DNA of 64,000 nt from Argopecten irradians (taxonomy: Eukaryota; Mollusca; Bivalvia; Pectinida; Pectinidae): contig NC_091135.1 in NCBI RefSeq assembly GCF_041381155.1, positions 53,891,997 to 53,955,996 of the forward strand. The letters are read 5' to 3'. Of this stretch, positions 1 through 61,677 are shown in pieces. The translations under genes were made by a program, and so were the position numbers. The notes under the pieces are model-generated. The model saw only the letters and a program-made list of their open reading frames with translations, did no database searches and was not told where the DNA came from. The first letter of the stretch is position 1. Every line of letters starts with the position of its first letter.

Positions 1-231
1 AAAGTATGGGAGAAAAAGAATAAAACATGGGCCTGTCAGGTGGACAGAAATATCTCAATCCTTGTGAAAGATTTTGACCATTAACCCTCAGTAAGCCTTG
101 GGTTGACCAGCCAAAATCTTTCACTTGGGTTGAGATATCCCTGTCCACCTGACAGGCCAATGAAGATTCTATTACTCTCATTGGTAGTAAATAAACATAT
201 TTTTGTGTAAGTAAAACATTGTAGCACATAC

Positions 232-3026
232 GCTGCTTTATCCACAACTTGCTGTGCTGCTTGAAGATCGCCACATCTCAGACAATAGTAGATCATGGCC
301 CAGGTAGGGTGGCCGTCCACTGTCTCGTCCTGGAGGAGAATTGATAAGGAGCAGGATGTTAATCCACAAAGGCAAGACAGGACATATTTCAGCAAAGTAT
401 TAATACAGATTAATGTAGGTTAATGACATCCTAGTGTGTTCAGACTATGGTAGGTATATAACTTTTTGTCTTGAAAGGGTACATATAGACAGATTCAATA
501 TCATTTATCAATTTAATAGATGATTTTTAAGCATTTTAATCTTCAATGTTGAAATACAATATACTATCACTTTCATTCAAAATTGTTTAAGAATGATTTC
601 AATTAAGATGGCTTAAGAATGTATGTTAAAACTAAGCATTAGAACAATTGGTTTTTTTTTTTAATTCTGGCCTCCACAGAATGTCAATACTAATGTTATC
701 TGGAACTTATCCCTCACCTCTAGTCCTCTCATGTTGGGAGGTTTCACGTTAAGGAAGCTACGGACTAAGTTGTAGGTACCTGGGACTCCGCCCAGCTGTG
801 CCTGTTGGAGGTTACCATATATGGTGTTGGTAATATACTTTGTGTACCTGTAATGAGAAATAACCATATATGATGTTGGTGGTATACTTTGTGTACCTGT
901 AATGAGAAATAACCATAAATGGTGTTGGTGACATACTTTTTGTACCTGTCAAGAGAAATAACCATATATGATGTTGGTGATATACTTTGTGTACCTGTAA
1001 TGAGAAATAACCATAAATAGTGTTGGTGATATACTTTGTGTACCTGTAATGAGAAAATACCATATATGGTGTTGGTAATATACTTTGTGTACCTGTAATG
1101 AGAAATAACCATATATGGTGTTGGTAATATACTTTGTGGACCTGTAATGAGAAAATACCATATATGGTGTTGGTGACATACTTTGTGTACCTGTAATGAG
1201 AAATAACCATAAATGGTGTTGGTGATATACTTTGTGTACCTGTAATGAGAAAATAACATATATGGTGTTGGTGATATACTTTGTGTACCTGTAATGAGAA
1301 AATACCATATATGGTGTTGGTGACATACTTTTTGTACCTGTAATGATAAATAACCATATATGATGTTGGTGATTTACTTTGTGGACCTGTAATTTGAAAA
1401 TACCATATATGGTGTTGGTGATATACTTTGTGGACCTGTAATTTGAAAATACCACATATGGTGTTGGTGATATACTTTGTGTACACCATGTGGTATTAGT
1501 GATATATTTTGTGTATCTCTAATGAGAAACGTAATTTGTAATTGTTTAATGCATTGCATACAAATGACCAAGCATAAAAGTTAAATCATTCTTGTATTTC
1601 ATTATCACCCCACTGCATAGAATGTACATAGTAATCCAGTAACAAACACACAGGGTCCCTTCTGAATTCCCCAGAGATTCCAAGTTTCAGGGAAGTCGCT
1701 AGCCTTGTCCATAAAAAGCCACAGAAGTCCTGTGCTTACTGTGATTCCAAGTAGTCCCTAGCCTTGTCCACAAAAGCCATGTGAGTCCTGTAGTCGGAGC
1801 GAGTCTGACTGATGCTACTGGTCGACACAAGGGGCACTTCTACCATACATTTTACCATCTCCCATAGATCTACCACATGCTACAACCGACAAAAACATTT
1901 CAAAATTATATCGAATATATGGCGGCCTTATATCCCTTCAGGACAAATTGTTTCAATAGATAATATTGTAGTAGTTAAGAAACATTGAGACAGTTTTTAG
2001 GAATATCTCCTTTATTTATACATTGTATCTGCAGATTAAGCACTAAATATTACTTTCAAGCTTAAGTATCTCATTAAAACAGGACACAAGACGATCATAC
2101 CTATAAATATCACGTTACAAAGTGTTTTTGTCAGTACCAGTTAAAATGTATAAACAAAAGTTATAGAAATAATTATAGAAGGGAATTGTGTCCTGTATCT
2201 CCTCCATACCTTGTCATCCAGTTTCTTTGCCACATCCAGGAACATATCCACAAGACAAGGCCTCAGACTGCCCTGTACAATATGTTCGTTGTACTGGAAT
2301 ACCTAAACAATAAAATAGACTGACAGTTTAATCTCCTCAGAGGAAAACAGTCATAAAATTCACGATTTATTTCAGTAATTTAATGTCTGATATTTTTTAC
2401 ACTAATCCTTGAGTTTCTGGGACATGAACATGATTAATTTACAATGTCAGTTGTTCTTCAGCCATTGAAATTTATTACATCTCCATAAATTTGGTAAAGC
2501 AGTTTTGGATAAATTGAAAACATAGAAAGTTTACAAATGCACAACAGACTATACATGCATGATGACAATAGGCAGAAGGCAATTTGAGGAGGAAACTAGA
2601 GATTTTATCTTGAATGATCTGTATATGACTTTGTGTTCAAGCTTCAATATTTCATCAGTTAAACTAATAGCTAAACAATTATACTTTATTACTGTACATT
2701 GATTTAAGATATCTCAATAGATTTTAAGTGCAATACCTGGTACTATTTTTGATTCTTTCTTTTGCAATGATCATTTCATGATTTAAAAGGGATTAAAAAT
2801 TTTGGACTGCGTACAGATTCTAACCATAGATGTACGAATATTTCCATGAATAATTCTTCACACTTTTGAATATTTTTCAAGACTATGTATGATATTAATA
2901 CAATACATGTTTGACAAAACACAACAGGCATCAATAAAGATATACACATACCTGTCTGGCATATGCAGCTTCTATGTTGTCTAGACTACTACGGCCCTGC
3001 ATATTGACTGGATCGGCAAGGAAACT
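232..3026 (-). CDS. NUP93: NUP93 exons 5-9, duplicate copy (partial)
   Basis: Five exons on the minus strand repeat those of the main gene: 2952-3026, 2210-2302, 1740-1879, 718-847 and 232-329, in transcription order. All have AG/GT borders and the same coding phases as 11193-11267, 10451-10543, 9981-10120, 8959-9088 and 8474-8571. No coding difference was seen in the exons checked. Exons 1-4 have no duplicate here, so this copy cannot make a protein from its own start. If the duplication is an assembly artefact, this is simply the same gene and its real continuation lies to the left of the window. It should not be counted as a paralogue. Confidence 0.85.
811..1535. repeat. 49-bp minisatellite, left copy
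   Basis: Unit starts marked by ACCATA fall at 814, 863, 912 and 961, exactly 49 bp apart, and about 14 units follow before the array decays near 1500. On the minus strand each unit reads a pyrimidine-rich stretch, ATTACAG, then GTACACAAAG, which is the intron-exon junction of NUP93 exon 8. It is the same array as at 9052-9776. Long reading frames through it reflect a unit without stop codons, not a gene. Confidence 0.95.
1673..1729 (-). repeat. Degenerate copy of the NUP93 exon 7 end (left copy)
   Basis: This stretch repeats, with changes, the coding end of the adjacent exon (1740-1790): the GCTAGCCTTGTCCA core and the AGAAGTCCTGTG/TGAGTCCTGTAG segment occur in both. It lies just inside the intron, downstream of the donor on the minus strand, and looks like a decayed local duplication of the exon border. 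The right copy carries the same thing at 9914-9970. Confidence 0.6.
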
Positions 3027-3045
3027 CTGTAAATACAAATATTAG

Positions 3046-4391
3046 CAGGGTTCACACCAGCTTTTTAAATTCTGTCGCCAAAATTTTCGCCAAAGTGAAA
3101 TTTCTTTCGCCAAATAAGATTTTTTGGAGGAGCCACAATAAAGAAATGTAAATTTGATTGTTGAAATGAATAATTATCTCCCTAAATGTTAGTTTACGTT
3201 TCGATAAGTATGGAAATGTATTGATTAAACAAACACGAATGAAAGGTTTCATTTTAAGGATGTATCATTTAGTAGAAATCTTTCTAAGCATTTTTTTTTC
3301 TACAGATTAAAAAATATGAACATTAATTTATTGAATTTCATACCTACATTACAGATATTCTTTAAATCAATCCCCAATAATTATACTCAAAATAGGTGAT
3401 TAATTATAACAACATTGAAAGCGAAATTTTATTATTTTGATTTATTTAAAATAATTCTGATTTTTTTTGGCTGTAAAAACGCCTGTGCACTGACAGCACT
3501 TATATTAAAAATGTGTTGATTTTTTTAAAATCCTAATATTATTGTTGATTTTTTTTTTAAATCCTAATATTATTAGTATTATTTAATGGATAAATCATAT
3601 TTCTTAAAATCGTAATTTGTTGAGGTTTGGAACTTGAAAAAGAAAACTATGTGTTAATTTTCATTTTCTTGGTGTTTAATGTTGAAAAATATGAACGAAA
3701 ATCCGGAATTTATTGACTTCCGGTTCCAGATATTAGTGTTGACTGTTTCTTACCGCAAGCAACAAATGCCAAAATGGGCAGAGCAATGAAGCCATGTGTA
3801 CTCAAGTCGATCCTTGTCTGACTTTGCATTCAAAGACATCAGGTCTATGTTAAAATGGTTTTGGATATGGACTAGTATGTGATCAATGATTTTCACCACG
3901 CTTTGTTTTGATCTTTTGTGGATCGATTGGTATAATTTGTCCAACTTAGAGCTTCTCGGTAAGGCTGTAAACATAGCTTCCAGTTTGAACGGCTATACTG
4001 ATAATCGGCCGAGTAGAGTAACTGTTGTTTGTGTAAACAAACTCGACACGTTGGTCACTGTGGGTTGCCCTCTGGTAATTGACAGCTTAGCATGCTAGCC
4101 TAAGCTACCCAAGGTCCTGAACACTAATTAATAAGACATACCTGGACTGTACAAATTACCTGGATTCAGATCCAATATCTAAATCCTGTACACAACTATG
4201 ATATTAATGGTGAAGCAGATACTGAAAGCACATGGCTCTCAATTTTGGAATAAATGGGTCAGATTTAGTCTAGTCGGTGCCTGCCCAGAAAAAATCGCTT
4301 CAAAAGTCCCATAATATTATCGGGCCACTCAGAAAATATTTATTTTCCGCAGTGAATGCGAGCAGTTGGCGACCTGCTTTCGTGAACCCAG
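3046..4391. mobile_element. TIR element with TCGCCAAA motifs, left (degraded) copy
   Basis: This is the counterpart of the element at 11287-12474. The left end CAGGGTTCACACCAGC and the flanking ATTAG are intact. The right end at about 4380-4391 is corrupted by insertions. The copy is about 150 bp longer than its twin because of scattered extra bases, which fits consensus errors at a contig end. Confidence 0.65.
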
Positions 4392-4499
4392 ATTATTATT
4401 ATACGCACATCCTATCTGAGGATTACTATTGGCAGTAATCTCTGTAAGTACCAGTAACATATGATATATGCACCATCTTCAGTTTATATGGCTGTACAG

Positions 4500-7010
4500 T
4501 TCACATAAATATAGGCATACTAATAGACAGCCAGGTGAAGTTCGCCCCCCGCGCTGGTTGGTGAGAACGGTTAATGAGTTGTGGAGAATAGTCTAAGGGT
4601 TATAACACCCTATTTATACCAGCTGCAGTGAAAAGCAGAGCCCACGTGTGCCTCCTGGTGGGATATAAGGTGATGAGGGTTGTGGAATGTCTTAATATCT
4701 TTATTTTTGGATTGCGGGGGAGGGTGGTGAGGGGATGGGGTTAACATCCCTAATTTAACAGCCCAGATGAAGGGCGACCTATCCATGTGTGAATCGTCCT
4801 ATAGGGTTTACATTCCTAATTAACATGCACCAGTGAAGGGGGTCCTTCCATGTGTGAAATCGTCTGAGGTTTTACAGCAACCCTATTGTAACAGGCCAGT
4901 GAAAGAGCGGCCTCCCCTGTAGCGGATATGTGAGTGATGGTCGTGTGTATGTCTATGGATTTTTACATCCTATTAACAGCGCAAGTGAAGAGGGGCCTGC
5001 CCCTGTGCGAATGTCTTATGGTTTTGACATCCGTTACTTAACCTAGCTCAGTGAAGGGGGTGGCCTCTCCCATGGTTGGAAATGTTCTTATAAGTTTTAC
5101 ATCCTATTAATGCAGAGATACAAGTGAAAGGGGTCTCCCCTGTGCGAATGTCTATGGTTTTACATCCTATTAACAGCCAATGAAAGGGGCCTTCCCTGTG
5201 GGCAATGGATAGTGTGTGAAGTCTATGTTTTACATCCTATTAACAGCCTGTGAAGGCGGCCTTCCATGTGTGAATGTCTATAGTTTTATATCCTATTAAC
5301 AGCCAGTGAAAGAGGCCTCCTGTGTGAATGTCTATGGTTTTTACATCCTATTAACAGCCAATGAAGGGGGCCTTCCATTGTGAATGTCTATAGTTTTATA
5401 TCCTATTAACAGCCAGTGTAGGCGGGGTTCCATGTGTGAATGTCTATAGTTTTACATCCTATTAACAGACAGTGAAGGGGGCCTTCCCTGTGGAAAATGT
5501 ATGGCATTCTCTCATGTGTGAATGTCTATAGTTTTATATCCTATTAACAGCCAGTGAAGGGGGCCTTCCCTGTGTGAATGTCTATAGTTTATATCCTATT
5601 AACACTGAAGGCCTCCATGTGTGAATGTCTATGATTTTACATCCTATTAACAGCCAGTGAAGGGGCCTTCATTGAGTGTGTGTGAATGTCTATGATTTAC
5701 ATCCTATTAACAGCCTGTGAAGGCGGCCTTCCAGGTGTGTGAATGTCTATAGTTTTATATCCTATTAACAGCCAGTGAAAGAGGCCTCCCCTGTGTGAAA
5801 ATGTGATGAGGTGTGTAATGTCTATGATTTTTACATCCTATTAACAGCCAATGAAGGGGGCCTTCCATGTGTGAATGTCTATAGTTTTACATCCTATTAA
5901 CAGCCAGTGAAGGCAGGGTGGTTCCATGTGTGAATGTCTATAGTTTTACATCCTATTAACAGCAGTGAAGGGGGCCTTCCTGTGTGAATGTCTATAGTTT
6001 TACATCCTATTAACAGCCAATGAAAGGGGGCCTTCCATGTGGGAATGTCAATAGTTTTATATCCTATTAACAGCCAGTGAAGGGGGCCTTCCATGTCTGT
6101 TACATGTCATATAGTTTTTTATATCCTATTAACAGCCAGTGAAGGGGGGCCTTCCATGTGTGGTTTGTTTTTTTATTTGTTTTTTTTTTTTTTTTTGTGT
6201 TTTTTTTTTGGTTTTGTGTTTTGGTTTTGTTTTTTTTTTTTGTTTTTATCCTAGTTTTGTTTGGTTTGTTTTTTTTTTTTGGTGTGGTTGTTTTTTTTGT
6301 TTGTGTTTTTGTTTTTTGTTGTTTTAACAGCCAGCGATGAGGCAGCCTTCCATGTGAGCAATGTGATGTGGTGTGTGAATGTCTATGGTTTTACATCCTA
6401 TTAAACTTAGCCGGTGAAGGCGGCCTGCTCCCTGTGGGAAATGTGTTATGAGGTGTGTGAATGTCTATAGTTTTATATCCTATTCAACAGCCAGTGAAGG
6501 TTGCCCTCCCCTGCGGAAAATGTGATCGAGTGTGTGTAAATGTCTATGATTTTTACATCCTATTTAACAGCCAATGAAGGGGGCCTTCCATGTGTGAATG
6601 TCTATAGTTTTACATCCTATTAACAGCCAGTGAAGGCAGCCTCACCCCCTGTGGGAAATGTGATGAGGTGTGTGAATGTCTATGATTTTTACATCCTATT
6701 AACAGCTAATGAAGGGGGGCCTTCCATGTGTGAATGTCTATAGTTTTACATCCTATTAACAGCCAGTGAAGGGGCCTTCCATGTGTGAATGTCTATAGTT
6801 TTACATCCTATTAACAGCCAGTGAAGGGGGGCCTTCCATGTGTGAATGTCTATAGTTTTACATCCTATTAAACAGACAGTGAAGGGGGGGCCTTCCATGT
6901 ATGAATGTCTATAGTTTTATATCCTATTAACAGCCAGTGAAGGGGGCCTTCCCTGTGGGCAATGTCTATGGTTTTAAATACTATTAACAGCCAGTGAAGG
7001 CGGCCTTGAT
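4500..7010. repeat. 55/74-bp satellite, left (noisy) copy
   Basis: This tandem array has the repeating core CCTATTAACAGCCAGTGAAG and corresponds to 12585-14335. It is about 750 bp longer here. Extra single bases and short insertions break up almost every unit between 4500 and 5300. A T/G-only stretch of about 160 bp (about 6165-6327) replaces a few bases of the right copy. No gene is present. Confidence 0.85.
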
Positions 7011-8060
7011 CACGTTTATAGCAATACATACAATGACAAGAGATCCCAGAGGGAATCTTGGCGCCCACCAAAGAATGATCTATATCTGACAAAGGAAAGA
7101 TGGATCTTTTCTCTACTTTTTTAAACTTTTTCAAACATACTACATATAAAATTTTGCTTTCAGTGCCTTTTGAGAAATAGCGGTAACAAACTTCAACTAT
7201 CAAAATCCAAGATGACTCCTTGGTGGCCATCTTGTTGATCAATCGGTCCCAAATCACAATATGCACAACTAGGGCCCTAGGGGAACCTACAATATGAATT
7301 TTGAGACAGATCCCTTCAGTACTATTTCTGACAAAATAGCGATAACAAACTTTGAATAACAAAATCCAAGATGGCTGCCTGGCGGCCATCTTGTTAACAT
7401 GCCGATCGGTCCCAAAATGCAATATGGCACAACAAGGTCCCTAGGGGAACCTACATATGAAATTTGAGACAGATCCCTTCAGTACTATCTGAGAAATAGC
7501 CATAACAAACTTTAACTATCGAAATCCAAGATGGCGGATCGCCTGGCAGCCATCTTGTTTCACCGATCGTGTCATCCCAAAATGCAATATACACAACTAG
7601 GTCCCTAGGGGAAACTTACATATGAATTTTGAGACTAGTATCCCTTCAGTACTATCTGAGAAATAATGCCATAACAAACTTTGAATAACAAAATCCAAGA
7701 TGGCGGCCTGGCAGCCATCTTGTTCACCGATTGTTTCCAAAATGCAATATGCACAGACAAGGTCCCTAGGGGAACCTACATATGAAATTTGAGACAGATC
7801 CCTTCAGTACTAATCTGAAGAAATAGCTATAACAGAACTTAACTATCGAAAATCTCAAGTATGGCGTGCCTGGCAGCCATCTTGTTCACAATTCGATCGT
7901 GCAGCATTCCCAAAAGTGCAATATACACAACTAGGTCCCTAGGGGAACCTATATATGAAATTTTGAAACAGATCCCTTCAGTACTATCTGAGAAATAGCC
8001 ATAACAAACTTTAAAAACTATCGAAATCCAAGATGGCTGCCTGGCGGCCATCTTGTTTCC
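7011..8060. repeat. 155-bp satellite, left copy, cut by the gap
   Basis: The units carry AATCCAAGATGGC and GCCATCTTGTT in inverted orientation, with GGTCCCTAGGGGAACCTA between units, as at 14336-15920. The array stops abruptly at the run of Ns. Insertions relative to the right copy continue throughout. Confidence 0.9.
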
Positions 8061-8070
8061 NNNNNNNNNN
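8061..8070. other. Assembly gap (10 N)
   Basis: Ten consecutive Ns separate the two copies of the NUP93 3' region. The sequence to the left ends within a satellite; the sequence to the right restarts in unique DNA upstream of the duplicated start. A fixed short N run is typical of a join of unknown size made by scaffolding. Confidence 0.98.
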
Positions 8071-8154
8071 AATTCATCCTACAGTAACACAGATTGTGTA
8101 AATTCCTCTTTATCCCCAATACTGAAAACAAATTATTCTATCTAATGTTATGAA

Positions 8155-8402
8155 TGTCAGCTCACATGCGCTAGACAGTGACGTCATCAATACATGTAGC
8201 GACCATTTTTACGAACAGAGACATTCTGCACAATTTCTTGTAAAAGTATGGGAGAAAAAGAATAAAACATGGGCCTGTCAGGTGGACAGAAATATCTCAA
8301 TCCTTGTGAAAGATTTTGACCATTAACCCTCAGTAAGCCTTGGGTTGACCAGCCAAAATCTTTCACTTGGGTTGAGATATCCCTGTCCACCTGACAGGCC
8401 AA
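8155..8402. mobile_element. Inverted-repeat element (GGGCCTGTCAGGTGGACA family)
   Basis: Arms at about 8271-8318 and 8355-8401 are imperfect inverted repeats containing GGGCCTGTCAGGTGGACA and TCCACCTGACAGGCC. The outer part includes GACGTCATCAATACATG. The same pieces in the same order occur at 39286-39950, so this is a dispersed non-autonomous repeat. The left copy (1-160) is cut by the window edge. It lies about 70 bp from NUP93 exon 9, on the donor side. Confidence 0.65.
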
Positions 8403-8473
8403 TGAAGATTCTATTACTCTCATTGGTAGTAAATAAACATATTTTTGTGTAAGTAAAACATTGTAGCACATAC

Positions 8474-11400
8474 GCTGCTTTATCCACAACTTGCTGTGCT
8501 GCTTGAAGATCGCCACATCTCAGACAATAGTAGATCATGGCCCAGGTAGGGTGGCCGTCCACTGTCTCGTCCTGGAGGAGAATTGATAAGGAGCAGGATG
8601 TTAATCCACAAAGGCAAGACAGGACATATTTCAGCAAAGTATTAATACAGATTAATGTAGGTTAATGACATCCTAGTGTGTTCAGACTATGGTAGGTATA
8701 TAACTTTTTGTCTTGAAAGGGTACATATAGACAGATTCAATATCATTTATCAATTTAATAGATGATTTTTAAGCATTTTAATCTTCAATGTTGAAATACA
8801 ATATACTATCACTTTCATTCAAAATTGTTTAAGAATGATTTCAATTAAGATGGCTTAAGAATGTATGTTAAAACTAAGCATTAGAACAATTGGTTTTTTT
8901 TTTAATTCTGGCCTCCACAGAATGTCAATACTAATGTTATCTGGAACTTATCCCTCACCTCTAGTCCTCTCATGTTGGGAGGTTTCACGTTAAGGAAGCT
9001 ACGGACTAAGTTGTAGGTACCTGGGACTCCGCCCAGCTGTGCCTGTTGGAGGTTACCATATATGGTGTTGGTAATATACTTTGTGTACCTGTAATGAGAA
9101 ATAACCATATATGATGTTGGTGGTATACTTTGTGTACCTGTAATGAGAAATAACCATAAATGGTGTTGGTGACATACTTTTTGTACCTGTCAAGAGAAAT
9201 AACCATATATGATGTTGGTGATATACTTTGTGTACCTGTAATGAGAAATAACCATAAATAGTGTTGGTGATATACTTTGTGTACCTGTAATGAGAAAATA
9301 CCATATATGGTGTTGGTAATATACTTTGTGTACCTGTAATGAGAAATAACCATATATGGTGTTGGTAATATACTTTGTGGACCTGTAATGAGAAAATACC
9401 ATATATGGTGTTGGTGACATACTTTGTGTACCTGTAATGAGAAATAACCATAAATGGTGTTGGTGATATACTTTGTGTACCTGTAATGAGAAAATAACAT
9501 ATATGGTGTTGGTGATATACTTTGTGTACCTGTAATGAGAAAATACCATATATGGTGTTGGTGACATACTTTTTGTACCTGTAATGATAAATAACCATAT
9601 ATGATGTTGGTGATTTACTTTGTGGACCTGTAATTTGAAAATACCATATATGGTGTTGGTGATATACTTTGTGGACCTGTAATTTGAAAATACCACATAT
9701 GGTGTTGGTGATATACTTTGTGTACACCATGTGGTATTAGTGATATATTTTGTGTATCTCTAATGAGAAACGTAATTTGTAATTGTTTAATGCATTGCAT
9801 ACAAATGACCAAGCATAAAAGTTAAATCATTCTTGTATTTCATTATCACCCCACTGCATAGAATGTACATAGTAATCCAGTAACAAACACACAGGGTCCC
9901 TTCTGAATTCCCCAGAGATTCCAAGTTTCAGGGAAGTCGCTAGCCTTGTCCATAAAAAGCCACAGAAGTCCTGTGCTTACTGTGATTCCAAGTAGTCCCT
10001 AGCCTTGTCCACAAAAGCCATGTGAGTCCTGTAGTCGGAGCGAGTCTGACTGATGCTACTGGTCGACACAAGGGGCACTTCTACCATACATTTTACCATC
10101 TCCCATAGATCTACCACATGCTACAACCGACAAAAACATTTCAAAATTATATCGAATATATGGCGGCCTTATATCCCTTCAGGACAAATTGTTTCAATAG
10201 ATAATATTGTAGTAGTTAAGAAACATTGAGACAGTTTTTAGGAATATCTCCTTTATTTATACATTGTATCTGCAGATTAAGCACTAAATATTACTTTCAA
10301 GCTTAAGTATCTCATTAAAACAGGACACAAGACGATCATACCTATAAATATCACGTTACAAAGTGTTTTTGTCAGTACCAGTTAAAATGTATAAACAAAA
10401 GTTATAGAAATAATTATAGAAGGGAATTGTGTCCTGTATCTCCTCCATACCTTGTCATCCAGTTTCTTTGCCACATCCAGGAACATATCCACAAGACAAG
10501 GCCTCAGACTGCCCTGTACAATATGTTCGTTGTACTGGAATACCTAAACAATAAAATAGACTGACAGTTTAATCTCCTCAGAGGAAAACAGTCATAAAAT
10601 TCACGATTTATTTCAGTAATTTAATGTCTGATATTTTTTACACTAATCCTTGAGTTTCTGGGACATGAACATGATTAATTTACAATGTCAGTTGTTCTTC
10701 AGCCATTGAAATTTATTACATCTCCATAAATTTGGTAAAGCAGTTTTGGATAAATTGAAAACATAGAAAGTTTACAAATGCACAACAGACTATACATGCA
10801 TGATGACAATAGGCAGAAGGCAATTTGAGGAGGAAACTAGAGATTTTATCTTGAATGATCTGTATATGACTTTGTGTTCAAGCTTCAATATTTCATCAGT
10901 TAAACTAATAGCTAAACAATTATACTTTATTACTGTACATTGATTTAAGATATCTCAATAGATTTTAAGTGCAATACCTGGTACTATTTTTGATTCTTTC
11001 TTTTGCAATGATCATTTCATGATTTAAAAGGGATTAAAAATTTTGGACTGCGTACAGATTCTAACCATAGATGTACGAATATTTCCATGAATAATTCTTC
11101 ACACTTTTGAATATTTTTCAAGACTATGTATGATATTAATACAATACATGTTTGACAAAACACAACAGGCATCAATAAAGATATACACATACCTGTCTGG
11201 CATATGCAGCTTCTATGTTGTCTAGACTACTACGGCCCTGCATATTGACTGGATCGGCAAGGAAACTCTGTAAATACAAATATTAGCAGGGTTCACACCA
11301 GCTTTTTAAATTCTGTCGCCAAAATTTTCGCCAAAGTGAAATTTCTTTCGCCAAATAAGATTTTTTGGAGCCAAATAAAGAAATGTAAATTTGATTGTTG

Positions 11401-14400
11401 AAATGAATAATTATCTCCCTAAATGTTAGTTTACGTTTCGATAAGTATGGAAATGTATTGATTAAACAAACACGAATGAAAGGTTCATTTTAAGGATGTA
11501 TCATTTAGTAGAAATCTTTCTAAGCATTTTTTTTTCTTTAAAAAATATGAACATTAATTTATTGAATTTCATACCTACATTACAGATATTCTTAAATCAA
11601 TCCCCAAATAGGTGATTAATTATAACATTGAAAGCGAAATTTTATTATTTTGATTTATTTAAAATAATTCTGATTTTTTTTGGCTGTAAAAATGCCTGTG
11701 CACTGACAGCACTTATATTAAAAATGTGTTGATTTTTTTAAAATCCTAATATTATTGTTGATTTTTTTTTTAAATCCTAATATTATTAGTATTATTTAAT
11801 GGATAAATCATATTTCTTAAAATCGTAATTTGTTGAGGTTTGGAACTTGAAAAAGAAAACTATGTGTTAATTTTCATTTTCTTGGTGTTTAATGTTGAAA
11901 AATATGAACGAAAATCCGGAATTTATTGACTTCCGGTTCAGATATTAGTGTTGACTTCTACCCAAAACAAACCAAAATGGCGGCTGAGCCATGTGCTCAG
12001 TCGATCTTGTCTGCTTTGCATTCAAAGACACAGTAAGTAAAATGGTTTTGATTGATATATGTGACAATGATTTTCACACCTTGTTTTGTTCTTTGTGATG
12101 ATTTTATTGTCAACTAAGCTTACCAAGCTGTAACAAGCTTCCAGGTGAACGGCTAGACGATCACCGGTAGAGTAACAGTGTTGTGTAAACAAACCGACAT
12201 GGGTCACTGCCTCTGGTAATTGACAGCTTACATGCTAGCCTACCAAGTCATGACACTAATTAATAAACAACCTGGACTGTAATTTACCTGGATCAGACCA
12301 ATTTCTACCTGTACAACTTATGATATTATGGGTGAACAGTACTGAACACATGGCTTCAATTTTTGAATGGGCGATTTTTCTGTCGCCAAAAAAATCGCCA
12401 AAGTCATAATTTTATCGCCAATGAAATATTTTTTTCGCAAAATGCGACATTGGCGACCGCTGGCGTGAACCCTGATTAGTATTATACACATCCTATCAGG
12501 TTTCTATGGCTGTATCTCTGTAAGTACAGTATCAGTGTTATACACTTCTTAGGTTATATGGCTGTAGGTTCAATAAATTTACATACTATTAACAGCCAGT
12601 GAAGGCGGCCTCCCCTGTGGGAAACGTGATGAGGTGTGAGAATGTCTATGGTTTTACACCCTATTAACAGCCAGTGAAAGCGGCCTCCCCTGTGGGATAT
12701 GTGATGAGGTGTGTGAATGTCTATGATTTTACATCCTATTAACAGCCAGTGAAGGGGGCCTTCCATGTGTGAATGTCTATGGTTTTACATCCTATTAACA
12801 GCCAGTGAAGGGGGCCTTCCATGTGTGAATGTCTATGGTTTTACACCCTATTAACAGCCAGTGAAAGCGGCCTCCCCTGTGGGATATGTGATGAGGTGTG
12901 TGAATGTCTATGATTTTACATCCTATTAACAGCCAGTGAAAGGGGCCTCCCCTGTGCGAATGTCTATGGTTTTACATCCTATTAACAGCCAGTGAAGGGG
13001 GCCTTCCATGTGTGAATGTCTATAGTTTTACATCCTATTAACAGACAGTGAAAGGGGCCTCCCCTGTGCGAATGTCTATGGTTTTACATCCTATTAACAG
13101 CCAGTGAAAGGGGCCTCCCCTGTGCGAATGTCTATGATTTTACATCCTATTAACAGCCAATGAAGGGGGCCTTCCATGTGGGCAATGTGATGAGGTGTGT
13201 GAATGTCTATGATTTTACATCCTATTAACAGCCTGTGAAGGCGGCCTTCCATGTGTGAATGTCTATAGTTTTATATCCTATTAACAGCCAGTGAAAGAGG
13301 CCTCCCCTGTGTGAATGTCTATGGTTTTACATCCTATTAACAGCCAATGAAGGGGGCCTTCCACGTGTGAATGTCTATAGTTTTATATCCTATTAACAGC
13401 CAGTGTAGGCGGGGTTCCATGTGTGAATGTCTATAGTTTTACATCCTATTAACAGACAGTGAAGGGGGCCTTCCCTGTGGAAAATGTCTATGGTTTTATA
13501 TCATATTAACAGCCAATGAAAGGGGCCTTCCATGTGGGAATGTCAATAGTTTTATATCCTATTAACAGCTAGTGAAGGGGGCCTTCCATGTGTGAATGTC
13601 TATAGTTTTATATCCTATTAACAGCCAGTGAAGGGGGCCTTCCATGTGTGGTTTTACATCCTATTAACAGCCAGCAAAGGCAGCCTTCCATGTGAGCAAT
13701 GTGATGTGGTGTGTGAATGTCTATGGTTTTACATCCTATTAACAGCCGGTGAAGGCGGCCTCCCCTGTGGGAAATGTGATGAGGTGTGTGAATGTCTATA
13801 GTTTTATATCCTATCAACAGCCAGTGAAGGTTGCCTCCCCTGCGGAAAATGTGATGAGGTGTGTGAATGTCTATGATTTTTACATCCTATTAACAGCCAA
13901 TGAAGGGGGCCTTCCATGTGTGAATGTCTATAGTTTTACATCCTATTAACAGCCAGTGAAGGCAGCCTCCCCTGTGGGAAATGTGATGAGGTGTGTGAAT
14001 GTCTATGATTTTTACATCCTATTAACAGCTAATGAAGGGGGCCTTCCATGTGTGAATGTCTATAGTTTTACATCCTATTAACAGCCAGTGAAGGGGGCCT
14101 TCCATGTGTGAATGTCTATAGTTTTACATCCTATTAACAGCCAGTGAAACAGCCAGTGAAGGGGGCCTTCCATGTGTGAATGTCTATAGTTTTACATCCT
14201 ATTAACAGCCAGTGAAGGGGGCCTTCCATGTGTGAATGTCTATAGTTTTACATCCTATTAACAGCCAGTGAAGGGGGCCTTCCCTGTGGGCAATGTCTAT
14301 GGTTTTAAATACTATTAACAGCCAGTGAAGGCGGCCTTGATCACGTTTATAGCAATACATACAATGACAAGAGATCCCAGAGGGATCTTGGCGCCCACCA

Positions 14401-17400
14401 AAGAATGATCTATATCTGACAAAGGAAAGATGGATCTTTTCTCTACTTTTTAAACTTTTCAAACATACTACATATAAAATTTTGCTTCAGTGCCTTTTGA
14501 GAAATAGCGGTAACAAACTTCAACTATCAAAATCCAAGATGACTCCTTGGTGGCCATCTTGTTGATCAATCGGTCCCAAATCACAATATGCACAACTAGG
14601 GCCCTAGGGGAACCTACATATGAATTTTGAGACAGATCCCTTCAGTACTTTCTGACAAATAGCGATAACAAACTTTGAATAACAAAATCCAAGATGGCTG
14701 CCTGGCGGCCATCTTGTTAACCGATCGGTCCCAAAATGCAATATGCACAACAAGGTCCCTAGGGGAACCTACATATGAAATTTGAGACAGATCCCTTCAG
14801 TACTATCTGAGAAATAGCCATAACAAACTTTAACTATCGAAATCCAAGATGGCGGCCTGGCAGCCATCTTGTTCACCGATCGGTCCCAAAATGCAATATA
14901 CACAACTAGGTCCCTAGGGGAACTTACATATGAATTTTGAGACAGATCCCTTCAGTACTATCTGAGAAATAGCCATAACAAACTTTGAATAACAAAATCC
15001 AAGATGGCGGCCTGGCAGCCATCTTGTTCACCGATTGGTCCAAAAATGCAATATGCACAACAAGGTCCCTAGGGGAACCTACATATGAAATTTGAGACAG
15101 ATCCCTTCAGTACTATCTGAGAAATAGCTATAACAAACTTTAACTATCGAAATCCAAGATGGCGGCCTGGCAGCCATCTTGTTCACCGATCGGTCCCAAA
15201 ATGCAATATACACAACTAGGTCCCTAGGGGAACCTATATATGAAATTTGAAACAGATCCCTTCAGTACTATCTGAGAAATAGCCATAACAAACTTTAACT
15301 ATCGAAATCCAAGATGGCTGCCTGGCGGCCATCTTGTTTTTCCGATCAGCCTCAAAATCTGTATGGCACAACTAGGGACCAAGGGTAACCTACATGTGAA
15401 GTTTGAACAAAATCCCTTCAGTAGTTCTCAAGAAATATCGATAACAAACTTCAACTGCCAAAATCAAAGATGGCTGCCTGGGGGCCATCTTGTTTTTCCG
15501 ATCAGCCTCAAAATCTGTATGGCACAACTAGGGACCAAGGGTACCCTCCATGTGAAGTTTGAACAAAATCCCTTCATCAGTTCTCAAGAAATATTGATAA
15601 CAAACTTCAACTGCCAAAATCAAAGATGGCTGCCTGGCGGCCATCTTGTTTTTTCCGATCAGCCTCAAAATCTGTATGGCACAACTAGGGACCAAGGCTA
15701 ACTTCCATGTGAAGTTTGAACAAAATCCCTTCAGTAGTTCTCAAGAAATATCGATAACAAAATTCAACTGCCAAAATCAAAGATGGCTGCCTGGCGGCCA
15801 TCTTGTTTTTCCGATCAGCCTCAAAATCTGTATGGCACAAATATGGAGCAAGGGGACCCTCCATGTGAAGTTTGAACAAAATCCCTGCAGCAGTTTTTAA
15901 GAAATAGTGATAACAATTATTGTTTACGGACGGACGACAGACGACGGACCACGGACGCAGGACGATTTGAATAGCCCACCATCTGATGATGGTGGGCTAA
16001 AAATGAAAGTCTGCCGTTTCCACTCACTTCTGATTCTGGTTGAAAGTCAAAGGTATCCTGTCCTGGTCCTCTCATTGAGTTGAGGATTTTCTGTTTCTCT
16101 CTTTCCCATTCATTCTCCATACATTCCCAGTGTCTCCTTTCCGTCTCCTCAAAGGTCTGAAATCAAATTGGGGCAAAATTCCTTCGGATTAATTATTTAT
16201 CTAGACTTGGCCAATCAGACTTATTAGTACTATTTCTTAATTTTGGGGTCTAGAATATAATTATGGCAAATGGATCATTTAAGTCTTGAAATTGCCCATA
16301 GGAAATCATAAATGAAGCTTTAAAATACCTCTAAATTAAAGTTTCCTTTATTTTCAACATAAAATGTTTTCCTTTGAAGAATATCTGGTCCTGAAGTTTC
16401 TGCTCAGATATAATTAAGCTATTTAAGGATACCATGTAATGATGTTAATCCATAAAACATATTTTCCAATGTGAATCAAAAAATAACTACAATGTAAATA
16501 AATTTCTCACATTTCTCCTGGTCTGTTCAATAATTGCAAGTAGTGCATTTTCTCTTTCATTTCTCAAGAAACCCTGAAAAATAAATAACTTTGAATAAAA
16601 CACTCACAAAATAAGGTACCTAAAGTACCAAATGACATCATCATGGTATTTCTGTTATAACATGATATGGCTCAAAAGAGGTCCAGCTAGGATGTGAAGT
16701 GCTCGGCAAAACAAAAATGCATTTTTACATGTGACATCCTTATCTAGGGCATGTGCATGTACATGACATTGCCATTTGTGTCTGCATTACAGATAGTAGT
16801 TAAAATAAGTTAAAATTCTAGTTTGAATAGTATGTGTATAGAACTGTATACCTCTATGTCTGTATCACTAATGGGTTCTAATGGCTCATAAGACTTGGCA
16901 ACACTCAGACTTTCCAGTTTCTGGGCTGTCCTTGGCACATCATATCCCTTTGTTCCCAGGAGAATAGAGCTACAAAATATTCCATTCATTAAAAGTGTTT
17001 TACTTGAAATCTGTACAAGTCAAATTTGATGGGATTGCTGAAACTACAAAACAGTTCTAACATTTTTTTACGTGAAAAAGGGTAAAACATCTATCAACTA
17101 ATTATAAAATTTCTGAAATATAGATTCCATAATTAGATACCACAGGTATTGAGCAACAAAATTATGAATTCAATATCTTCAACATACACTCAGTCTGGAT
17201 AACACTAGCTAACTGGGTACTTACGCCTTGACGTCTGTAGAATCCTGACTGATTGGTGCCACTTTAGACAGGAGTCTTTGTCCTGCCTCCAGGATTTGTG
17301 TAAGGTTACGCGACACTCGCGGCAAGTCAGTACCACTCTCCATCTCAGCAGTAAGCTGCTCAGCCTGCTGCTGCAGGTCCCCAAAGTCATTTCCATCCTC

Positions 17401-17412
17401 ATCCATATTCAT
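8474..17412 (-). CDS. NUP93: Nuclear pore protein NUP93, exons 1-9 (C-terminus missing)
   Basis: Exons in transcription order: 17225-17412, 16852-16969, 16511-16573, 16028-16156, 11193-11267, 10451-10543, 9981-10120, 8959-9088, 8474-8571. All borders are AG/GT and every phase joins in frame. The start ATG at 17412 opens the reading [12 protein letters not shown], closely matching vertebrate NUP93 (the ELLQQAEQLAAE region). Later matches include the [32 protein letters not shown] and [16 protein letters not shown] regions and [19 protein letters not shown]93 is a scaffold subunit of the inner ring of the nuclear pore; its N-terminal region binds NUP62-complex proteins and its C-terminal part is alpha-helical solenoid. 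About 344 codons are present of roughly 820 in the family. The rest should follow exon 9, but the 10-N gap and duplicated block interrupt it. Intron 4 is bloated by satellites, and exon 8 has an acceptor-bearing minisatellite at its 5' edge. Confidence 0.95.
9052..9776. repeat. 49-bp minisatellite made from the NUP93 exon 8 splice acceptor
   Basis: About 14 units of 49 bp run from the first bases of exon 8 into intron 7. On the minus strand each unit contains TTATTTCTCATTACAG followed by GTACACAAAGTATATYACC, the end of the intron and the first codons of the exon. The exon-proximal unit is the one whose reading ([17 protein letters not shown] across the splice) aligns with vertebrate NUP93 (LEQSYKNYTLVTVFGNL). 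Variants include TTTGAAAATACC and CATAAATAG forms. The last units near 9720-9776 are decayed. Confidence 0.95.
9914..9970 (-). repeat. Degenerate copy of the NUP93 exon 7 end
   Basis: This resembles bases 9982-10034, the coding end of exon 7, with substitutions and an in-frame stop in the copied reading. It lies immediately downstream of the exon 7 donor on the minus strand. It appears to be a partial local duplication of the exon-intron border. Confidence 0.6.
11287..12474. mobile_element. Non-autonomous DNA transposon, ATTAG flanks
   Basis: The ends CAGGGTTCACACCAGC and GCTGGCGTGAACCCTG are inverted repeats. Direct ATTAG lies on both sides (11282-11286 and 12475-12479). Subterminal DNA on both arms is rich in TCGCCAAA motifs. 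The CAGGG start resembles hAT ends, but hAT elements make 8-bp target duplications and I see only 5 bp, so the superfamily is uncertain. No transposase reading frame is present. It sits in NUP93 intron 4. Confidence 0.75.
12585..14335. repeat. 55/74-bp satellite in NUP93 intron 4
   Basis: This tandem array is built on CCTATTAACAGCCAGTGAAG, followed by GGGGGCCTTCCATGTGTGAA in short units (about 55 bp) or GCGGCCTCCCCTGTGGGAAA plus TGTGATGAGGTGTG in long units (about 74 bp). The two forms alternate irregularly. The array leads directly into the next satellite at TTGATCACGTTTATAGC. No coding sequence is recognised; small open frames follow the repeat. Confidence 0.9.
14336..15998. repeat. 155-bp satellite element with hairpin end
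   Basis: Units are spaced 155-157 bp (AAGAT at 14846, 15001, 15156, 15311, 15467, 15623, 15780). Each holds CCAAGATGGC and GCCATCTTG facing each other. The right end is a GACGGACGACAGACG-rich tract (about 15929-15963), then GAATAG, then the hairpin AGCCCACCATC/GATGGTGGGCT (15973-15998), followed by AAAA. This tandem-core plus hairpin architecture resembles Helentron-derived non-autonomous elements of molluscs, as an inference from structure only. Confidence 0.8.
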
Positions 17413-22036: not shown

Positions 22037-42286
<20,250 letters not shown>

Positions 42287-53382: not shown

Positions 53383-54366
53383 TTACTTGTGTCCTGCAGT
53401 GGCTCCAGTAGGGATAGTTGCCCCAGAACTGGTCACATTTGCTGCTTTTTGCTTCAGCATTGTCCAATCAAATGTGTAGTCATATTGATAGTTCAATGTG
53501 CGGAACAGAATGCGGAATAGCTGTCGTAGATACATGTAGTCTGGGGCCTCCTCAAAACGTAGTCCTCTGCAGTAATTTAAATACATAGCAAACTCTGCAG
53601 GATAACCTTTGCACAGGACCTCAACTGGGGTTGACATCTTTTTCTCACTTATCTTTTCATATTTCTGCTTTTTCGTTGCAGCCTTCAATCCTTGCCATGG
53701 TAGTGATCCTCGGTTGAAGTACATTAACACGTAGCCAAGCGACTCCATGTCATCCCTTCTGCTTTGTTCAATACCCAAGTGTGCGTTGATACTTGCGTAT
53801 CTGGCAGTTCCTGTCAGGTTCTTGTCCTCTCTGTATGGGATGTGTTGTCTTGTCCGACTATCTCTGTATTTTTTGGCCAGACCATAATCAATGAGAAATA
53901 CTTTATTACAGTGACGACCAATACCCATCAAGAAATTGTCAGGTTTTATGTCTCTGTGGATAAAGTTTTTGTTGTGAACATATTCAATACGTCCAATCAT
54001 TTGGTCAGCAAGCATAAGCACAGTTTTCATTGTGAATCTTCTTGAGCAGAAGTTGAACAGATCCTCCAAACTGGGCCCAAGCAAGTCCATAACCAGGACA
54101 TTGTACTCTTTTTCTTGGTTATAATAACGGATGTGTGGAATACCTACTCCGCCAGCCAAAATTTTATATAACTTGCTTTCATACAACAGCTGAGGATGTC
54201 TTGCCTTAAGAGATTCAAGCTTAACTGCCACTTCCTCTCCGTTTGTTATGTTGATACCCAAATAAATGTCACCAAACGAGCCACTGCCTATTTTTCGAAC
54301 GAGACGATACTTTCCACCCACAATAAATTCGCTCTGTCCACTTGGGGTACCTTTAGTATTCTCCAT
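53383..54366 (-). CDS. CSNK1A1: Casein kinase I alpha, intronless
   Basis: One uninterrupted 327-codon frame starts with ATG at 54366 in a good context (CAAAATGG). It encodes a serine/threonine kinase of the CK1 family, which in animals phosphorylates beta-catenin (priming for GSK3), Period and many acidic or primed substrates. Visible features: [21 protein letters not shown] (glycine loop), EEVAVKLES (ATP lysine), [14 protein letters not shown] (catalytic loop), [32 protein letters not shown], and [20 protein letters not shown], the CK1 kinesin-homology region. Similarity to human CK1-alpha looks above 85 percent through the kinase domain. The metal-binding triplet is DYG, not DFG. The tail after the kinase domain is short (about 30 residues). 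Most animal orthologues have several introns, so this may be a retrocopy. It lies head to head with LPCAT. Confidence 0.96.
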
Positions 54367-54623
54367 TTTGGGCTTTGTTACCGATGTATCATCTATAATT
54401 TATCGTCTTTTAGAGTAAAACTATCCAAATATTTCACAATTTTATCTGTTCTGACTGGTTGCCATCTTGGGTGGTTGCATCGCAATAAGGATTACCCATA
54501 ATTCATTCGTCTCTGTCTACGTTGGATGGGAGCGCATGCGTACAGGACACCTATTATAATTCCGTTTCCGCCACTGAGCTCAACAATGTTGTAGGAGTCC
54601 TTTTAAATCAACACGTAAACACG
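54367..54623. promoter_or_regulatory. Bidirectional promoter between CK1-alpha and LPCAT
   Basis: Only 257 bp separate the two divergent start codons. GCGCATGCG at 54532-54540 matches the NRF1 core palindrome. GGTTGCCATCTTGG (about 54458-54471) is an inverted YY1-type CCAAGATGGC site on the CK1-alpha side, near the position expected for its 5' UTR. No TATA box is evident, as is usual for housekeeping divergent pairs. Motifs only; transcription starts are not known. Confidence 0.55.
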
Positions 54624-57600: not shown

Positions 57601-60600
57601 TAAACCTCTTACAGTATAGGGAACAACAACATCTCGTCAAAAGTTCCCACAGTTGCAACATGAACACCTACCATTTTTTCATTCGTTTTTTCTTAATCTG
57701 GTTCCATTTTGCGCTTCAACTTTCTTTTTCTTACGGGTTTAAGCGCTCAAGTGATAAGGATTTCAGCGTGTCTAAAGCACAAAGCAGAAATGGGAAGGGA
57801 AAAATCGGACTTTTGTTCTTCGGATATCTGAGCATCTGAAATAGGGGCGGTAATTTTTTTAAAATTTTATTTTCTAGCTTTTCCATTTTAGGGGTGGGAA
57901 ATTCCGAAGAGCTAGGTTTCAAATTGGTGTGGCCTTATGTACATGTATCTTTCTGTGTTTCTAGTGAGTGGTGTGGTAGAAGTTTATAATGTTTATTCCT
58001 AATTCTATTCAGAATGTTGTATCATGTTTTTGTATAGGTTTTAAGATCTGCTGAAAAGTCCCAATACAAACTATGAAAAAAATAAATGATCAGAGTATAG
58101 AGCAGTATTTTATTATATTGTTATAAATATCTTATGATTTAAATATTCCTTATTTATACACATACCAAGCGCATGCCAGCATATGGATAGAAATATCTCT
58201 TCATAACAAATACAATGGTTATGATTGAAATATGCAAATTTATAAAGGAATTTTTCCTGTTTTACGCAATAAGTTGGTGTACAGGTGTATATATATATAC
58301 ATAAAATGGTGATCTATTATAATTCTGTACATACGCATTGTTTGGAATACCTGAAAGATCCTTTCATTCATACATGGTATCTGGCATGTCTTTGCACATT
58401 CAGATCTACCAGAGTTACTTCCCTTCATTTCACTCTGATTGAAACAAAAGGAATTCACTCTGATTGAAACAAAGGGAAGTAACACTTGAAGATTAATGGT
58501 TTTTGTTATAAAAACCAAATTGATTAATACATTGCTTTAAAGTTTTATTTTCTTTCGTAACAAATGTATAAATTTTAGTTTGATGTGGTGCATTTAACAA
58601 TGGTTATGATAAATTGTCAGAACTTCTAATTTTGAACTATGTAATGTTTAATATCCTTTCCAGTGATGTAATGTTCAGTTTGCTGTGACCATTCTCTAAC
58701 AGTGTAGGAACTGTATGTCAATTTTCAAGAAATTGATTCATTTCTACATTATATGTTTTGGTTGGTTAATTGATATTTGTGCATCCTTTAATACATTATG
58801 CCTGAAAGAAAGCTTCAGTTTTTAGTTGACATGATAAAGCTGGTCATCATGCATGGACAATAAGGTCAAACAAAGCCTAGATTTATTCTGCTTGCAAGTA
58901 TCTCTGGGTTTTGGAAGAACCAAACTTATGCAATGTGAAAAACAGTATTTGCAATACTGTGAAAATAAGGTGTTTTTTTATTATTATTATTTAATTAAGT
59001 TTGTCTAGCTAGTCTGTAGGAACAATACAAGTCTTTGCCATATCCTGGCATCCTTAGATATCATTCTCCCATGTCACTTATCATACATTAATTAAATTGG
59101 ATGGTTAAATTAGAAATTGTTCAAATGGTAGTCAGGATCCACAGCCCTGAACTCATGCTCAAGGGATGGGGTAATTGTTGTAAGCTAATTCTTATTTAAT
59201 TTGTTTAGTATAAGTCTTTTTAGATGACCTATAGTCATCATGTTTCGTCCGTCGTCGTGCGCCGTCCGCCGTGCGCCGTGCGTTAACTTTTCACATTTTG
59301 AACTTCTTCTCAAGTTTGACCAGTGGGATTGAGCTGAAACTTACCTGAAATGATCCTGAGATGGTCCCGACAAAGTGTTGTTATTTTTCGGGTTGATCCG
59401 AAATCCAAGATGGCCGCCACAGCTGCCATCTTGAAAACACATTTTGAACTTCTTCTCAAGTTCTACCGGTGCGATTTGGCTGAAACTCACCTGAAATGAT
59501 CCTGAGATGGTCCTGACAAAGTGCTGTTATTTTTCGGGTTGATCCGAAATCCAAGATGGCTGCCACAGCCGCCATCTTGAAAACACATTTTGAACTTCTT
59601 CTCAAGTTCTACCGGTGCGATTTGGCTGAAACTTGCATGAAATGATCCTGACATGGTCCCGACAAAGTGATGTTATTTTTCGGGTCGATCCGAAATCCAA
59701 GATGGCCGCCACAGCCGCCATCTTGAAAACACATTTTGAACTTCTTCTCAAGTTCTACTGGTGCGATTTGGCTGAAACTTGCATGAAATGATCCTGACAT
59801 GGTCCCAACAAAGTGTTGTTATTTTTCGGGTCAAACCGAAATCCAAGATGGCCGCCACAGCCACCATCTTGAAAACACATTTTAAACTTCTTCTCAAGTT
59901 CTACCAGTGCAATTTGGCTGAAACTTGCATAAAATGATCCTGACATGGTCCCGACAAAGTGTTGTTATTTTTCGGGTTGATCTGAAATCCAAGATGGCAG
60001 CCACAGCCGCCATCTTGAAAACACATTTTGAACTTCTTCTCAAGTTCTACCGGTGCGATTTGGCTGAAACTTGCATGAAATGATCCTGACATGGTCCCGA
60101 CAAAGTGTTGTTATTTTTCGGGTCGATCTGAAATCCAAGATGGCAGCCACAGCCGCCATCTTGAAAACACATTTTGAACTTCTTCTCAAGTTCTAACGGT
60201 ACGATTTGGCTGAAACTTGCATGAAATGATCTTGACATGGTCCCGACAAAGTGTTGTTATTTTTCAGGTCAATCTGAAATCCAAGATGGCCGCCACAGCC
60301 GCCATCTTGAAAACACATTTTGAACTTCTTCTCAAGTTCTACCGGTGCGATTTGGCTGAAACTTGCATGAAATGATCCTGACATGGTCTCGACAAAATGT
60401 TGTTATTTTTCGGGTCAATCAGAAATCCAAGATGGCCGCCACAGCCGCCATCTTGAAAACACATTTTGAACTTCTTCTCAAGTTCTACCTGTGGGATTTT
60501 GCTGAAACTTGCATGAAATGATCCTGACATGGTCCCGACAAAGTGTTGTTATTTTTCGGGTCGATCTGAAATCCAAGATGGCAGCCACAGTCTCCATCTT

Positions 60601-61677
60601 GAAAACACATTTTGAACTTCTTCTTTGAAGTTCTACCGGTGTAATTTGGCTGAAACTTGCATAAAATGATCCTGACATGGTCCCGACAAAGTGTTGTTAT
60701 TTTTCGGGTCAATCCGAAATCCAAGATGGCGGTCACAGCCGCCATCTTGAAAACACATTTTGAACTTCTCCTCAAGTTCTACCGGTGCGATTTGGCTGAA
60801 ACTTGCATGAAATGATCCTGACATGGTCCCGACAAAGTATTGTTACATCTCTGGTTGATCCCAAATCGAAGATGACTGCCATGACACTATATATCTAATT
60901 AATTTCCTATATTTAAAGGCCCTTGGGCCTCTTGTTTGAAATAAAATTTGTTAAAAGAAATTGAAAATGATCCTGACATGATCCTGACAAAGTGACACCA
61001 TATATATTTAATTTTACTATTGTCAAGGTAGTCAGATGACCGTTAAGGCCCTTTGGGCCTCTTGTTTTGAATTAGAGTCATATGATCAGCAGAATGTTAA
61101 ATGTATGTCTGCATTACCTGGTATTATGTATATGTTGAGGTAGATCCGTTCCTAGGAAAATGTTTGTAATATCACATCAGTAAAGTGTTTGCTGTATTAA
61201 AAGATATACTAGGCTACATATTAAATCATTCATAGGTCAGTGCTATTAAAAAGACTAAAAATCAGTTTAATACTACCGGTATGTGATGTGCAGAAGGAAC
61301 TTACCTTAAACTTTTGTCATTGATATGATATGCCTACTTGAGAATTGTCCAAATTGAGTGAGGTAGCTGCCTTTCCATGCAGACAGCTGGCGGATACTCT
61401 GTATAGACAAACCAAGCAAAAGTTTGAAGTATGTACAGGTTTACAACTTTTGTTTGTAGCTTATTACGACCGGTGGTAGTTCTGATGTGCAGAGGATTGT
61501 TCCTGGCAGGTGGATTCCACTGGGTAACAATTAAGGGCAAGAGGGTGCATGCCGCAGAGGCGCCTATACTGACACTCGTGCCCCATTCCACCTACTTTGA
61601 TGCCTTGCCAGTTGTAGCCCTGGATCTCACTACAATTGTCGCAAAGTCTCAAGCAGAAAAAGTGCCATTATTTGGAA
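54624..61677 (+). CDS. Lysophosphatidylcholine acyltransferase (LPCAT1/2-like), exons 1-3, 3' truncated by window
   Basis: Exons: 54624-54729, 55364-55506, 61460-61677, with GT-AG borders and in-frame joins. The enzyme family transfers acyl groups from acyl-CoA to lysophospholipids (Lands cycle) in ER and lipid-droplet membranes. Exon 1 contains VVPNPFVHQ, matching the APNPF/VPNPFV region of LPCAT1/2. Exon 2 encodes a hydrophobic segment (FVVPIRLVFCAIFLLSGYLI) and ends near WR. Exon 3 has LFLAGGFHWVTIKGKR and the acyltransferase motif HSTYFD (61584-61601), with catalytic His and Asp. The AGGFH...PHSxYFDA stretch is closer to LPCAT1 than LPCAT2. An in-frame ATG at 54522 is possible, but it lies upstream of the NRF1-like site, so 54624 is preferred. 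Motif EGT and the EF-hands must lie beyond 64000; intron 3 is open to the window end. Confidence 0.88.
56237..57934. mobile_element. TTA-flanked MITE (PIF/Harbinger-like)
   Basis: The ends GGCCACACCAATTTGAAA match in inverted orientation at 56237 and 57934. TTA lies directly outside on each side (56234-56236, 57935-57937), the 3-bp target preference of PIF/Harbinger elements. Similarity extends inward through CTTCGG. The 1.7-kb interior shows no transposase. It lies in LPCAT intron 2. Confidence 0.65.
58405..58490. repeat. Small inverted repeat with AGAGTTACTTCCCTT arm
   Basis: AGAGTTACTTCCCTT and the inverted AAGGGAAGTAACACTT flank a 26-bp duplication containing TCACTCTGATTGAAACAAA. The arm word is shared with the element at 23240-23465. 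Confidence 0.6.
59225..60935. repeat. 146-bp satellite element in LPCAT intron 2
   Basis: About ten to eleven units repeat at exactly 146 bp over most of the array. Each has TTTTCGGGTCGATCCGAAAT, then CCAAGATGGCCGCC facing GCCGCCATCTTG. The left boundary is the hairpin GATGAC/GTCATC (about 59225-59242) followed by a CGTCCGTCGTCGTGCGCCGT tract, the mirror image of the end at 15929-15998. The right side decays into AAAGGCCCTTGGGCCTCTTG, which recurs at 61046-61066. Confidence 0.93.

Follow-up and report, generated by a model that had tools for sequence, protein, structure and literature searches.

Minisatellites that duplicate an intron/exon boundary, known as mirages, have been described in the globin, Adh and TnC genes of amphioxus (PMC3087553, PMC3902484), and the available parts of one of these reports name Adh and TnC as further mirages and liken repeats in PGBD5 to them (PMC3902484). 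As far as the accessible text of both reports goes, the mirage of the globin gene BflGb6 combines the 3′ end of an intron with the 5′ part of an exon in many AG/GT units, its boundary units are excluded from homogenisation, and regular splicing is reported (PMC3087553, PMC3902484). In the literature that was consulted, mirages are found in two papers, both on lancelets, and a mollusc case may already be in print. Repeats within introns are also present in an abalone kinase gene, as a 27-bp minisatellite in intron 3 (PMC6905558), and in earthworm metallothionein (PMC12783039), and the portions of these two reports that were available do not mention a unit spanning a boundary. Introns can further arise when genomic segments that contain AGGT are duplicated in tandem, since AGGT can act as both donor and acceptor (PMC3443670).

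The array described here lies in a window of 64,000 nucleotides of Argopecten irradians (NC_091135.1, positions 53,891,997 to 53,955,996), on the minus strand of which homology places coding exons 1 to 9 of NUP93, which account for about 345 of its 826 codons. Coding exons 1-4 (A-D) occur once in the scaffold, at 15965-17412 (outer bounds of the protein matches), and the remaining exons, on the same strand, are coding exon 5 (E, 75 nt, 11193-11267), coding exon 6 (F, 93 nt, 10451-10543), coding exon 7 (G, 140 nt, 9981-10120, donor ACA|GTAAGC), coding exon 8 (H, 130 nt, 8959-9088, acceptor at 9089|9088 and donor GAG|GTGAGG at 8959|8958) and coding exon 9 (I, 98 nt, 8474-8571). The window exons align without a gap across the exon 7/8 joint with the NUP93 chains in the PDB, which we take to be those of vertebrates, the PDB match itself naming the molecule only. 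In a protein search, the exon translations are 100% identical to P0001, an 826-residue NCBI protein entitled 'nuclear pore complex protein Nup93-like [Argopecten irradians]', over a query of 341 residues from which only the H of the exon F/G joint was missing, a residue present in both the protein and the DNA. Exons E-I as read from the DNA are contained exactly in P0001, which carries one set of these exons and the joint of exon 7 to the authentic start of exon 8, and part of which is encoded by coding exon 8 (8959-9088). The cluster to which P0001 belongs has five members and four contigs, including a source labelled 'lgn'; the other 'lgn' matches are contigs about 2.5-3.7 kb long that carry complete frames of 820 residues and must be spliced transcripts.

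The exon 7/8 joint is free of insertions in all 26 aligned NUP93 sequences, which were hand-picked from 120 listed out of 478 hits and comprise P0001, other molluscs, further invertebrates, a frog and six entries without a species name. NUP93 of Mizuhopecten yessoensis is identical to the window from QYTKY to GNLQ. Because the start of exon 8 belongs to an old and conserved protein, the array must derive from the exon boundary, not the exon from a repeat unit. The original prediction had assigned the junction at 9088 to intron 7 and exon 8 of NUP93 and had held the unit nearest the exon to be truly coding; the first assignment is borne out by homology and by the joint in P0001, and the second by the gap-free PDB alignment and the complete match to P0001.

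In intron 7 and the adjoining start of exon 8, Tandem Repeats Finder reports a 49-bp minisatellite on the minus strand at 9055-9725, with 13.7 copies, 90% matches, 0% indels and a score of 1060, which is far beyond chance. Each unit combines the opening 34 nt of coding exon 8 with the closing 15 nt of intron 7. The unit consensus agrees with the start of the exon at 33 of these 34 positions and diverges thereafter. Counted from the splice junction, 14 units stand in register (n = 0-13), with the first base of each at 9088 + 49n. Unit 0 is the real start of exon 8, at the downstream edge of the array, and the intronic units 1-13 (9089-9725) occupy 637 nt of the 892-nt intron 7 (9980 to 9089). 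An AG precedes the junction in units n = 0-12 and is absent from n = 13, which leaves 13 near-identical acceptors in a row; AG|GT is likewise present at 13 of the 14 units. ATTACAG is found in 12 of 14 (unit n = 2 has TTGACAG, and n = 13 has neither) and GTACACAAAG in nine of 14. Beyond the last unit in register, unit alignment places a decayed outermost unit with a mutated acceptor (9726-9776, minus strand), from which 15 nt, corresponding to the intron part and the acceptor, are missing at the border with unit 13. The ladder of near-identical acceptors that had been predicted from about 14 copies of a unit lying across the splice site is thus present, whereas the statement that every unit carries these motifs was slightly too strong and applies to most of them.

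Variation is spread along the unit, the number of changed copies per position in units 1-12 being 0.61 in the first 33 positions and 0.94 in the last 16, and the mean identity between units is 0.89-0.92 up to eight units apart and 0.86-0.88 at distances of 9-11. Such spread variation, with a slight drop of identity with distance, is as expected of an array homogenised by exchange. The array has one genomic source: a 725-nt query against the whole assembly, for which repeat counts are lower bounds, returned two places (both of the two candidates were scored), which are the two array copies of the window. Dispersed copies of the 49-bp unit, which the original prediction had named as a refuting observation, were not seen with that query. 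Inside the window, the 20 listed matches of the unit outside the arrays are only 10-15 nt long (E >= 1.1), and Rfam and tRNA scans found nothing.

By its structure, the scallop NUP93 array can be classed as a mirage, and would be a new case in a mollusc and in a nucleoporin gene. Every unit spans the boundary, an authentic coding exon forms the edge unit, and many but not all of the units keep AG/GT. The array resembles the amphioxus mirages of BflGb6, BflGb9, Adh3 and TnC, and the similar repeats of PGBD5, in being a tandem duplication across an intron/exon boundary, at least as these are described in the available parts of the reports. It differs from BflGb6, for which units of 150-160 bp in numbers of six or three are given there, in its 49-bp unit and its 14 units, and from all of the amphioxus cases in its mollusc host and nucleoporin gene. 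The arrangement had been regarded as without precedent; it is instead of a rare kind already known from other genes of amphioxus (PMC3087553, PMC3902484), and a repeat type reported, in the sources consulted, from lancelets is extended to a mollusc and to an essential gene. Like the segments involved in intron gain, as far as that process is set out in the accessible text (PMC3443670), the duplicated segment holds AGGT, but here the acceptor of an existing intron is multiplied and a new intron is not shown.

We consider it probable (about 0.8) that the array is a mirage derived from the duplicated intron-7/exon-8 boundary, that the n = 0 acceptor is the one used, and that a second copy of the array in the window is an assembly error. 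A short stretch of the boundary, comprising 34 exonic and 15 intronic nt with AG|GT at the joint, would have been duplicated in tandem and then multiplied through slippage or unequal crossing-over. The original exon would have been kept as the most downstream unit, with every other copy turning into intron. The most downstream acceptor (n = 0, 9088) would then be spliced, with the strong exon-8 donor defining the 130-nt exon, and transcripts that combine an upstream acceptor with the normal donor would carry a stop and be expected to decay.

Splice sites were scored with a general weight matrix for human sites, from which scallop sites may differ. On this matrix the acceptors n = 0-9 score 9.4-11.3 (n = 8 being the highest) and n = 10-12 score 6.0-7.9, unit n = 13 being without AG, and n = 0 does not stand out by its local acceptor strength. 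Candidate branch points of the form yTnAy lie upstream of the AG at three of the 13 acceptors (n = 1, 3 and 7), n = 0 not among them, and do not separate the acceptors. Use of n = 0 is expected on the grounds of annotation and conservation; as annotated, P0001 uses the n = 0 joint and a second model, P0121, differs (n = 5). Because the exon-8 donor is strong (10.3 on the human matrix), exon definition with the nearest acceptor would be the simplest reason for the choice of n = 0. With 13 almost equal acceptors at a fixed spacing, the locus is a natural test of how the spliceosome chooses when the local signals are alike.

Exon 7 ends in GAA TCA CA and exon 8 begins with G, and an acceptor lying n units upstream adds 49n nt. 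When the normal exon-8 donor is used, n = 0 alone of the 13 acceptors gives an open reading. Acceptors n = 3, 6, 9 and 12 keep the frame but run into a TGA (9190-9192, minus strand), because the variant acceptor TTGACAG of unit 2 supplies a stop in the exon-8 frame that ends every in-frame extension; n = 1, 2, 4, 5, 7, 8 and 10 are frame-shifted and meet a stop in exon 8; and n = 11 meets one immediately. The array as an in-frame coding extension through the normal donor is rejected, since stops are found for 12 of 12 upstream acceptors (n = 1-12). The assertion that the array lacks stops accordingly fails in the frame that matters: long stop-free stretches do exist, in the form of open frames of 189, 202 and 227 codons, but the proposed extension of exon 8 is closed by the TGA at 9192-9190. 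That the upstream acceptors are all dead is true solely with the normal exon-8 donor, and P0121 and an enumeration of donors narrow the claim. Among 104 combinations of an acceptor with an exon-8 donor, 14 give an open, in-frame reading, and 10 of these start from an upstream acceptor (n = 1, 2, 4, 5, 7, 8 or 10). These 10 all use donors other than the normal one, at 9079, 9056 and 9020 with scores of 2.3-5.2, and each of them costs the conserved core of exon 8. Cassettes spliced by a donor inside the array (donor score of at least 3.5, minimum length 25 nt) keep an open frame in 16 of 77 combinations, seven of which are 147 nt long. The predicted addition of blocks from upstream acceptors would thus be cut off by stops with the normal donor, whereas alternative donors (10/104) and cassettes (16/77) would allow it on paper.

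These open combinations, together with the similar scores of acceptors n = 0-9, are what would be expected if the array were a working reservoir of alternative acceptors or three-unit cassettes that generates protein variants or sets the level of NUP93 through decay, a reading that we regard as unlikely. Also in its favour is P0121, an NCBI model prediction of 281 residues ('Nup93-like', A. irradians), which was the one protein matched when the 227-residue array frame was searched against 5.8 billion proteins (1941 candidates, about 125-397 aa long). Every residue of P0121 is accounted for by exon E from an inner methionine, exons F and G, exon 8 from acceptor n = 5, exon 9 and read-through into intron 9; its 'exon 8' (9021-9333, minus strand) ends at the internal donor CAG|GTACCT (9021|9020), with a net change of +183 nt. 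The protein nevertheless lacks the conserved core of exon 8, where its Pfam and PDB matches are interrupted, and terminates in intron 9; a larger, NUP93-sized protein with an array block was not found among 14 candidates of about 488-1552 aa, none of which reached E <= 0.01, the range of about 398-487 aa lying outside both searches. Furthermore, direct joining of an upstream acceptor to exon 8 never preserves the real frame without the TGA. P0121 can be read equally from either copy of a duplicated block in the window and, being a partial '-like' gene beside a gap, fits the products of false duplication, which, in the available parts of a survey of such errors, yield partial '-like' genes beside gaps (PMC9516828). 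It looks like a false '-like' gene and not like proof that acceptor n = 5 is used. P0001 and P0121 seem to derive from this same assembly and are thus not independent of it. That some tissues splice NUP93 to inner units or to three-unit AG|GT cassettes (147 nt, 49 residues) seems quite unlikely; if they did, the length of the array, which presumably differs between individuals, would tune the level or the sequence of NUP93.

Tandem NAGNAG acceptors and recursive splice sites are other arrangements in which several acceptors lie close together or AG|GT is found. The scallop ladder departs from both in its spacing of 49 nt, its 13 sites and its weak donor half. The AG|GT at 13 of 14 units had suggested a recursive layout, in which intron 7 would be removed in 49-nt steps by recursive or ratchet splicing. 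A recursive site has a good donor that is recreated after the first step, whereas on the human matrix the unit donors score 4.2 (GTACAC), 3.9 (GTACAA) and 0.2 (GTCCAC), and the exon-8 donor 10.3. Once the first step is completed, the recreated donor (ACA|GTACAC) would score -1.5, compared with 5.6 for the native exon-7 donor. Because the unit donors are weak and the recreated donor is weaker still, stepwise splicing is extremely improbable, and intron 7 is, moreover, just 892 nt long. A mirage spliced at n = 0 remains the preferred reading of the array itself. The array and coding exons 5-9 (E-I) are present twice, on either side of a 10-N assembly gap (8061-8070), a feature that the original prediction did not mention. 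Copy A (1-8060) contains exons E-I again and a second array (814-1484, minus strand) that is base-for-base identical to 9055-9725; where it stops at the gap, it has reached the equivalent of about 15339-15343 in copy B (8079-15343), the start of which corresponds to a place about 160 bp to the left of the window. A real tandem duplication of this 8.2-kb block, with the array twice in the animal, would agree with the order of both copies on one scaffold and with the annotation of two NUP93-like models by NCBI, and is very unlikely. Both copies end at the gap, copy A reaching up to it and copy B starting 8 bp after it, and gaps between copies are described as typical of false duplications in the parts of the report available (PMC9516828). 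Across 3124 aligned columns (A 1-3125) the copies show no substitution and a single difference of 1 nt, and their other differences are confined to the gap side of copy A: one substitution and eight insertions in A 3126-3743, 94 substitutions and 118 indels in the repeat-rich and badly alignable A 3744-6886, and 13 substitutions, 26 insertions and one deletion in A 6887-8060, with 108 substitutions and 131 extra compared with 22 missing stretches in copy A beyond the identical columns as a whole. Exons E-I total 536 nt, which is not divisible by 3, and a real duplication of them would therefore shift the frame; the other NUP93 exons occur once on the scaffold, with A-D lying on the right-hand side and the remaining ones on the left. 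Finally, a second version of the sequence that should follow the end of copy A sits on an unplaced contig of 19.8 kb (C1075), to which exon D is matched. The 10,314 bases taken from it align to 25065-15344 of the window at 91.8% (171 mismatches, 490 gap openings); the contig ends at 15344, next to the counterpart of the end of copy A (15339 or 15343, depending on the alignment), an abutment that falls within a 155-bp tandem array and could be off by a unit.

On our reading, a single alternative contig was broken, and a portion of it was attached to the primary contig. The near-identical adjacent copies, both ending at a gap, are as expected of a false duplication, and the second copy of the array and of exons E-I very probably arose in this way from overlapping contigs. 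False gene gain through assembly duplication errors, as portrayed in the accessible sections of its description (PMC9516828), applies to the second copy only and not to the array itself. The two array copies, identical over the array, probably represent one allele, and because the duplication is probably false, they do not show that two alleles share a stable length. For the 2020 draft genomes of A. irradians, which are distinct from this assembly, the text available reports that PacBio reads were used to fill gaps (PMC7090048). The locus also shows how a false duplication can place minisatellite-coded residues in a public protein record: P0121 (8323-11267 or copy A) includes such residues and is probably spurious.

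Several further features of the window were recorded. Tandem arrays with units of about 155-160 bp lie at 14485-15916 and 7171-8059, where the breakpoint of copy A and of contig C1075 falls, and others have units of about 66 bp (35209-36399) and about 146 bp (59292-60881). An uninterrupted protein kinase frame of 338 codons (Pfam Pkinase) at 53386-54399, presumably casein-kinase-1-like as judged by eye, is perhaps a retrocopy. An inverted repeat (27808-29207 and 32811-34210), 99.1% identical over 1404 aligned bp, lies at and beside a Pao-type retrotransposon frame (29597-33469) and is either a nested insertion or a palindromic assembly artefact.
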